Shown: positions 1 to 1,733 of the stretch, in pieces
Position numbering within the stretch: the stretch's first letter is position 1
Layout: every line of letters begins with the position of its first letter
Assembly: GCA_031289425.1 (NCBI GenBank)
Contig: JAITPM010000073.1
Coordinates: forward strand, 1-39,719
Origin: Fusobacteriaceae bacterium
GTDB lineage: Bacteria; Fusobacteriota; Fusobacteriia; Fusobacteriales; Fusobacteriaceae
Direction of reading: 5' to 3'
Length of the DNA: 39,719 bases
Translations under genes and position numbers: made by a program
Notes under the pieces: generated by a model
Databases searched by the model: none
Told to the model about the DNA's origin: nothing
What the model saw: only the letters and a program-made list of their open reading frames with translations

Positions 1-1733
1 AGGAAGGAAAAACAAAAAAAAGTAAAGAAAATAAAAAGATAAAACAAAAAGAAGCACAAGACGAGAAACAAGGCGAAGAAAAAAGTATAGAATTAGAAAA
101 AATAGATGAAGAAAGAATAAGGGAAAAAGGAATAGAAGAAGAAAGAACAGAAGAAGAAAGAATAAATAAAGAAAGAATAGAAGAAGAAAAGATAGAAGAA
201 GAAAAGATAAAAGAAGAAAAGATAAAAGAAGAAAAGATAGAAGAAGAAAATATAGAAGAAGAAAAGATAGAAGAAAAAAAGATAGAAGAAAAAATAGATA
301 AAGAGAAAATAGAAGAAAAAATAACAGAAGAAATAAAAGAAATAAAAGAAATAAAAGAAGACAAAATAAAAGAAGATAAAACAAAAGAAAACAAAACAAA
401 AGAAAACAAAATAAAAGAAGATAAAATAAAAGAAAAAAAAGTTGAAAAAGAAAATGAAGAGCGAATCAATAAACTAAAAACAACCTCTGATAAACCTTCT
501 AAAAATAAAAAAACAATAATTGCAGGAGAGGTTATAAGTGAAAATCTAAAAAAAGCATCATCTGAAGAAAATTTTGGTGATGAAGATTTTGATATTTTTG
601 ATGATGAAAAATCGGACAAAACAAAAGAATTAACCGGGAAAAAATCAAAAACAAAAGAGGAAAAAGCACTAAAAAAATCCAAAATTGATGAAGAAGATGA
701 AGAAAATTTTGATGATATTCCAATTGTGGATGATTTTGCTATAGATTTGGATTTGTTACCCGAAGATGAATTATTTGACGATTTTGTTGACGATAAACTG
801 GAAGATGATTTTGAAAAAATCGAAAGATTTAACCCTGATGAACTTGAAGAAATAAATGAAGAAGAATTATCTAATGATGAACTATTTTCTCTTTCCGGTG
901 ATATGAAAGTTGATGAACCTATAAAGATGTATTTGAGAGAAATAGGACAAATCCCTCTATTGAGGTATGAAGAAGAGTTGGAATACGCAAAAAGGGCTCT
1001 AGAGGGCGATGAGTGGGCCACAAAACAGATTATCGAAGCTAATCTAAGGCTTGTTGTGAGCATAGCCAAAAAACATACCAACAGAGGATTAAAGCTTTTA
1101 GATTTAATACAAGAAGGGAATATAGGACTTATGAAAGCTGTAGAGAAATTTGAATATAGTAAGGGATACAAGTTCTCCACTTATGCCACTTGGTGGATAC
1201 GCCAAGCTATAACCAGAGCAATAGCTGACCAAGGAAGGACAATTAGAATCCCTGTGCATATGATAGAAACAATAAATAAAATAAAAAAAGAAGCTAGAAT
1301 TTATTTGCAAGAAACTGGAAAGGATGCTACTCCGGAAATATTGGCTGAAAGGCTTGACATGGAAATAGAACGGGTGAAAGCAATACAAGAAATGAATCAA
1401 GACCCGATTTCATTGGAAACTCCGGTTGGCAGTGAAGAAGATAGTGAATTGGGAGATTTTGTAGAGGATAGTAAAATGCTAAACCCATACGAATTAACAA
1501 ATAGAAGCTTGCTTCGTGAACAATTAAACAGTGTCCTTAATACTTTAAGCGGAAGAGAAGAAAAAGTATTGAGATTTAGATACGGACTTGATGATGGTTC
1601 TCCCAAGACATTGGAAGAAGTTGGAAAGATATTCAAAGTAACGAGAGAAAGAATTAGACAAATAGAAGTAAAGGCATTGCGAAAACTTAGACATCCAAGT
1701 AGGAAAAAGAAATTGGAAGATTTTAAGGTATAG
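1..1733 (+). CDS. rpoD: RNA polymerase primary sigma factor RpoD, 5'-truncated by window edge
   Basis: This is the housekeeping sigma factor that directs core RNA polymerase to -35/-10 promoters. Seen: the frame is open from base 3 to the TAA stop, 576 codons, with no ATG, so the start lies left of the window. The GTG at 726 is in frame but has no ribosome binding site and sits inside continuous coding sequence. The first ~150 codons are almost only Glu, Lys, Ile, Arg and Asp; an acidic Asp/Glu stretch follows up to about base 900. After that come region 1.2 ([17 protein letters not shown], from ~912), region 2 ([19 protein letters not shown], then [12 protein letters not shown]), region 3, and region 4 ending in the helix-turn-helix [20 protein letters not shown]. 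Primary sigma factors normally have an acidic region 1.1 of about 80-100 residues, so this N-terminus is abnormally long. A sigma-like paralogue follows 25 nt downstream. Confidence 0.95.
135..284 (+). repeat. 15-bp coding tandem repeat (EEEKI-type) in the rpoD N-terminus
   Basis: Ten consecutive imperfect 15-bp units lie in frame, based on GAAGAAGAAAAGATA and coding for pentapeptides such as [15 protein letters not shown] and EEENI. Looser E/K/I repeats with a 9- to 15-bp period ([13 protein letters not shown]) continue to about base 445. The regular period suggests growth by replication slippage. The mix of Glu with Lys/Arg at i to i+4 spacing is that expected of a single alpha-helix or coiled coil. 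Confidence 0.85.

Follow-up and report, generated by a model that had tools for sequence, protein, structure and literature searches.

The rpoD locus and its contig boundary

The window, by which we mean the whole stretch of DNA analysed (39,719 nucleotides), forms the start of contig C117 in a 123-contig assembly, so that base 1 of the two is the same. It opens with an rpoD frame of 576 codons that is open right up to the first bases of the window. The rpoD ORF is truncated at its left because contig C117 starts at window base 1. The features of the locus are listed in Table 1.

Table 1 Features of the rpoD locus in window coordinates.
Feature	Position	Strand	Basis
Overlap of 20 bases with C77:48569-48588, the 3' end of that contig	1..20	+	frame runs on through the overlap
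rpoD, primary sigma-70 factor, residues 81-656 of 656	3..1733	+	profiles; first 80 codons on G000:C77
Linker between regions 1.1 and 1.2, residues 81-383	3..911	+	measurement on the joined protein
E/K/I-rich tract, residues 113-234, 15-bp / 5-residue repeat	99..464	+	repeat analysis
Eleven consecutive 15-bp EEEKI-type units	120..284	+	read from the sequence
Acidic D/E-rich segment ahead of region 1.2	681..896	+	alignable in relatives around FNPDELEEI
Regions 1.2, 2, 3 and 4	912..1733	+	Pfam

We then searched the same genome with region 1.1 of a relative. This search gave a single match, C77:48331-48534 (E 6.1e-9), on a contig of 48588 bases that terminates in frame (...KEGKTKK). The end of C77 carries, in order, dnaG, TTGAGGAGGATTTGTATAATG and MRELMKNPEIYDAIRDIVAQASKYKYITYEEINEKL..., with the Shine-Dalgarno sequence AGGAGG 9 bases ahead of the rpoD ATG. 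The coding part on C77 matched Pfam Sigma70_r1_1 (PF03979; E 3.3e-12, 46.6 bits, cut-off 22.5). The 20-mer shared by the two contigs occurs twice in the genome, at the end of C77 and at the start of the window, and the C77-C117 join is made on this A-rich 20-base overlap rather than on reads. The joined RpoD has 656 residues without an internal stop and takes in MRELMKNPEIYDAIR. In the congeners G001 and G002, dnaG, rpoD and a second sigma-like gene lie on one contig in the matching order (dnaG was identified by eye in G001 and by profile in G002, at 402.6 bits with TIGR01391). The dnaG on C77, scored as a fragment, was found below the TIGR01391 cut-off of 283.6 (268.8 bits, E 7.2e-80). The true start of rpoD, which the earlier note had placed to the left of the window, is therefore the ATG before a normal region 1.1 on C77. 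A start inside the repeat appears unnecessary, since an ATG with AGGAGG and a matching region 1.1 precede it.

Identity as the housekeeping sigma factor

The last 271 residues matched the Pfam models of regions 1.2, 2, 3 and 4, all above their cut-offs, with Sigma70_r1_2 at residues 306-338 of the window ORF. The C-terminal RpoD equivalog model TIGR02393 (cut-off 354) scored 394.9 bits with the window part and 394.5 with the joined protein. From position 897 onwards, the RpoD core is 97% and 96% identical to those of the two congeners. With the full-length RpoD models NF004208 and NF006666, the joined protein scored 474.6 and 468.1 bits, under cut-offs of 555 and 572 that are model thresholds and no defining trait of group 1 sigma-70; the RpoD of congener G002 likewise fell under them (485.9 and 482.9 bits). 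Passing Pfam regions 1.2 to 4 and TIGR02393 bears out the earlier identification of the gene as a primary sigma factor. The window has a G+C content of 30%; in both congeners the rpoD locus has 49-51%, although the RpoD cores are 96-97% identical.

A second sigma-like gene follows rpoD

A second sigma-70-like gene lies directly 3' of rpoD in the window (1759-2565, forward strand). Such an ORF was the first after rpoD in 24 of 26 family loci (by eye; 18 were aligned), namely the window, L010-L022, L024, L025, L027 and L030-L036. The two exceptions had a NIF3-like ORF (G030) and an unrelated ORF (G024). Pfam regions 2, 3 and 4 all passed in the G015 copy, and region 2 alone passed in the copies of the window, G001, G002 and G007. 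The YLDLxQEG motif of sigma region 2, which we take to be core-binding, was kept in the aligned copies while other parts were eroded. From its sequence, the gene seems to be a sigma factor that is in decay or has been put to another use, and its product may bind polymerase without reading promoters. The copies of G007, G019, G010 and G022 (L017, L018, L031 and L032) contain His/Cys-rich stretches, such as HHHDHEEDHECSCGH in G007, a composition that suggests metal binding.

The repeat lies in a linker between regions 1.1 and 1.2

Tandem Repeats Finder reported an array at 95..440 with period 15, 23.5 copies, 78% matches and a score of 298. This score was the second highest in the window, behind that of a 264-bp repeat (733). 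The latter is a direct repeat at 38644-39195 on the reverse strand, inside an ORF that continues past the edge of the window (37282-39717; autotransporter-like by eye). The earlier note had read ten EEEKI-type units of 15 bp and more than 240 open codons before region 1.2. In agreement with this, we counted eleven consecutive units and about 300 codons, so that the charged stretch, an open frame with a period-15 array, is real and long; as the repeat is seen in one strain's assembly, the exact number of units may be wrong.

In the joined protein, region 1.1 occupies residues 1-60, the linker residues 61-383, and region 1.2 begins with DEPIKMY at 384. The 323-residue linker is 60% charged with a net charge of -39. 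The repeat had been proposed as an N-terminal domain in place of region 1.1. The presence of region 1.1 on the upstream contig C77 rules out such a replacement: a standard PF03979 domain precedes the repeat, which is therefore a linker between regions 1.1 and 1.2. The claim of a housekeeping sigma factor without region 1.1 is thereby removed. The earlier note suggested that the stretch could place something far from the polymerase; the thing tethered by the linker is region 1.1 itself.

Linker length and charge among relatives

We measured this linker in 29 of 30 family rpoD loci, leaving out G010, in which the defining motif was not found. The linkers ranged from 63 to 323 residues, were 41-60% charged (0.41-0.60), and had net charges from -2 to -39, never positive. 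The three longest all belonged to the same genus (323 residues in this species, 252 in G002 and 217 in the other congener), and the remaining 26 loci, all from elsewhere in the family, had linkers of 63-151 residues. In an alignment of ten sequences, the expansion occupied the middle of the linker, with region 1.1 and the acidic FNPDELEEI stretch still recognisable. As the linker is charged in relatives and the expansion lies in its middle, charge is a family trait and length is the variable. Judged by these sequences, the E/K/I stretch is an over-long form of the charged tether found between regions 1.1 and 1.2 in the measured relatives. The long linker was common to all three genus genomes compared and differed in composition between them, which leaves room for selection on length.

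We expanded the search to the phylum and obtained an RpoD match at E <= 1e-100 in 96 of 98 genomes; outside the genus, the best-match open frames were 329-507 residues long. In a wider scan of named genomes (titles without Fusobacteriota), covering 76 of the best 80 loci after four were dropped, the median number of residues before region 1.2 was 97 and the maximum 271, taking the earliest Met in each open frame as a guessed start. The highest E/K/I/R fraction over 40 residues in these 76 loci was 0.60. In one relative, G013, a second RpoD-like match of 67% identity (G013:C154:26190-26981) lies in an open frame of 910 residues and is possibly a contaminant or another large sigma factor; this genome also has a normal rpoD of 395 residues.

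Predicted structure of the tract

The earlier note expected a long single helix or a coiled coil. Run on the single sequence, AlphaFold2 drew one helix over residues 3-158 of the window ORF (83-238 of the full-length protein), with block pLDDT values of 61-81, which makes the helix plausible. The model is weak: its mean pLDDT was 48.3, and nearly all residues past 162 were below 50, known sigma domains included. AlphaFold2 tends to draw helices for single E/K-rich sequences. The coiled-coil part of the expectation was not supported: hydrophobic residues in the tract gave a signal of 0.29 at period 3.5 versus 0.82 at period 5.0, so that there is no heptad signal. A search of the PDB with the tract returned one match, a serine-tRNA ligase chain at E 2.7, which is meaningless.

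On the basis of this model, it is possible that the tract forms a stiff rod. A stronger alternative holds that the rod is a selected single alpha-helix of roughly 150 residues, with a length near 23 nm were it helical throughout (1.5 Angstrom per residue), which sets the distance between region 1.1 and the polymerase and alters cleft gating. The predicted helix, the highly charged linker with a tract lacking a hydrophobic heptad, and the long linkers of all three genus members speak for it. The charge pattern speaks against it: relative to 2000 shuffles, opposite-charge pairs were weakly increased at i,i+3 (z 1.49) and the same as shuffled at i,i+4 (z 0.00). In the congener linker pieces tested, like-charge pairs exceeded opposite-charge pairs at i+3 (z -2.74 and -0.75), and therefore no conserved rod is present. 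The tract also fell on the disordered side of the charge-hydropathy plot, a blunt tool since region 1.1 falls marginally on that side too. Together with the low confidence of the model at known sigma domains and the helix bias of AlphaFold2 on such sequences, this leads us to consider a selected rod unlikely.

Similar E/K tracts are widespread in the genome

The DNA of the rpoD array matched at least 38 places in its own genome at E <= 1e-6, itself included. The same search found 3, 0, 2, 9 and 7 places in G001, G002, G025, G012 and G007, respectively, counts that are not fully comparable between genomes, as the best 40 candidates per genome were scored. We examined 30 of the other E/K-repeat places, of which 29 were located in sense ORFs of at least 70 residues in the E/K frame and one in none. 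Contigs C91 and C38 also start in such repeats, C38 in an open frame. The purine-rich AAAAAGATATAAAG-type repeat that opens C91 (G000:C91:3-276) has stops in all three forward frames. Elsewhere in the window, an E/K/I run, KEENIKEKIIKEEIISKK, was observed at 36144-36216 (forward strand) near the C-terminus of ORF 35355-36263.

By profile, the hosts of E/K tracts included IF-2, NusA, MnmG, a KH/R3H protein (KhpB-like), M3 oligopeptidase F, an NlpC/P60 protein, a glucosaminidase, a HerA-like helicase and a MORN-repeat protein. A RecX-like host scored 34.8 bits, far under the curated cut-off of 175. The tract lay outside Pfam-matched domains in 8 of the 10 proteins scanned, among them the RecX-like protein, which had no Pfam match. 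In the other two, the tract of MnmG interrupts the GIDA domain and that of the helicase is spanned by the HerA_C profile. The tracts are thus located mostly outside recognised domains, in many proteins of this genome.

The MnmG insert (G000:C43:34810-34980) is an E/K/I stretch of about 39 residues, at about 150-188. It is missing from the orthologs of five relatives, each of which matched as two adjoining pieces, with borders at 149/189-190 in G025, G007 and G012, 144/187 in G050 and 154/180 in G010; G001 and G002 yielded only the more distant MnmG paralogue. The MnmG of A. aeolicus (2zxh) has one residue where the insert sits. The tail of NusA was compared in G025, G012, G010, G001 and G002, with G007 and G050 outside the comparison. 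NusA stops shortly past the last conserved region in the first three. The NusA of G001 has a tail of 50 residues with no E/K pentads, and that of G002 has a long repetitive tail of other composition (A/E/K/P/R/T).

These comparisons bear on a second alternative, namely that long charged tails and linkers on RpoD, NusA and IF-2 have been selected genus-wide, for example so that the factors are held near each other or near the nucleoid, with composition following base content. G002, with 51% G+C at its rpoD locus, combines the 252-residue linker with the long repetitive NusA tail, as such selection would have it. The short NusA tail of G001, which lacks such repeats, and the tracts in MnmG, oligopeptidase F, NlpC/P60, glucosaminidase and MORN proteins, which have no obvious common role, argue against it, and we regard this explanation as distinctly improbable.

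Origin of the tracts

To further characterize the tracts, we analyzed period and codon use in 17 of them from 15 ORFs. The best amino-acid period was 5 in 10 of the 17. Isoleucine was encoded as ATA in 126 of 136 cases inside tracts versus 491 of 818 in the remainder of these ORFs (Fisher 1e-15), and lysine as AAA in 238 of 263 versus 811 of 968 (p 0.006). Glutamate showed no difference in the use of GAA (301 of 340 in tracts and 768 of 894 outside, p 0.26). When the DNA self-match at the best period was compared with synonymous codon shuffles, 0 of 500 shuffles reached it for rpoD and L165, and p was 0.012 for NusA, 0.022 for MnmG and 0.004 for L158. Phasing of the DNA beyond the synonymous shuffle was therefore significant in 5 of the 17 tracts at 0.05 and not significant in the other 12. 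This pattern fits local duplication of purine-rich units, which is best shown for rpoD and inferred for the remaining tracts.

A protein search of nine genomes with the rpoD tract (E <= 0.001) matched the tract itself alone; the tracts therefore resemble each other in composition and period, without demonstrable homology. In this genome, a DNA pattern of two EEEKI units (3 mismatches allowed) was found at 12 places (7 of them in rpoD) versus 6 with a reversed control, and each of 60 relatives had it at 0-3 places. Both results speak against a wide EEEKI family. Spread of one mobile unit was rejected, given the self-only protein match and the differing cyclic order of the units (EEEKI in rpoD, EEEIK in MnmG and NusA).

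An assembly artefact, in which the repeat was mis-built or comes from another gene, could be suspected from the contig break within low-complexity DNA and from the similar starts of C91 and C38, but it is hardly credible given a frame without stops in the array or at the join, a unique 20-base overlap, and a region 1.1 and gene order that agree with the congeners.

Interpretation

In our view, the gene encodes a primary sigma factor that is ordinary except for its extreme linker, which is part of a genome-wide pattern. We have good confidence that this is a real, unusually long charged linker in an otherwise ordinary housekeeping sigma factor, grown by 15-bp repeats in a tolerant position. The stretch would have grown as a purine-rich 15-bp unit was duplicated locally and in tandem, presumably where extra hydrophilic residues are tolerated, that is, in linkers, tails and loops. 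Region 1.1 would still act as usual: it would cover the DNA-binding regions while sigma is free, and sit in the polymerase cleft. With a tether that is longer, strongly charged and perhaps partly helical, the local concentration of region 1.1 at the cleft may drop, and the tether may, through its own acidity, provide extra electrostatic masking. By analogy, the most likely mode of working is thus the same region 1.1 domain on a longer, net-acidic tether.

A more far-reaching version can be formulated, in which the genus tether of 217-323 residues, here partly a stiff E/K helix, belongs to a programme, spread over the genome, that inserts charged pentads into proteins of transcription, translation and tRNA modification, with region 1.1 gating the cleft from afar. 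We consider this version a long shot. If region 1.1 did gate from a distance, promoter escape and the masking of free sigma would be changed.

The family offers a natural series of tethers from 63 to 323 residues, which could be used to test tether length against sigma autoinhibition. E/K-coding repeats grown in frame in several core proteins also make this bacterium a clear case for studying how much extra length essential proteins tolerate in their linkers and loops.

Comparison with known systems

Charged single alpha-helix segments share with the tract an E/K-rich composition and the lack of a heptad, and the weak AlphaFold2 model draws the tract as one helix. The tract differs from them in having no enrichment of i,i+4 salt bridges, in being net negative and in not being kept in congeners.

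In a survey of low-complexity regions, IF-2 stands first among the bacterial proteins tabulated as richest in such regions, and A/E/K-rich regions are common in ribosomal proteins (PMC6821194). A 5-residue period recurring in many genes of a single genome is not described in the portions of the survey considered, and its main text contains 0 words beginning with sigma, NusA or Fusobacteri. Among the titles and abstract openings of open-licence literature, we found no mention of a sigma factor in which regions 1.1 and 1.2 are joined by E/K pentads.

The earlier note knew of no housekeeping sigma factor built in this way. Long N-terminal extensions as such have precedent: according to passages of PMC10011835, M. 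tuberculosis SigA has a disordered N-terminal extension of 207-225 residues, whose acidic part (132-179) is needed for activity, and the M. smegmatis homologue shows little similarity to E. coli RpoD in its N-terminal part. Both SigA and the protein described here are, as far as those passages go, housekeeping sigma factors with a long N-terminal region that includes an acidic part. The extension of SigA is disordered, whereas here a region 1.1 recognised by Pfam stands before the charged stretch.

A further comparison is with group 1 sigma-70 factors (RpoD/SigA) in general. Part of PMC4496709 describes region 1.1 as a three-helix bundle joined to region 1.2 by a flexible linker. The protein shares with this group regions 1.1, 1.2, 2, 3 and 4 in that order, and differs in a 323-residue linker that contains a 122-residue E/K/I pentad tract.
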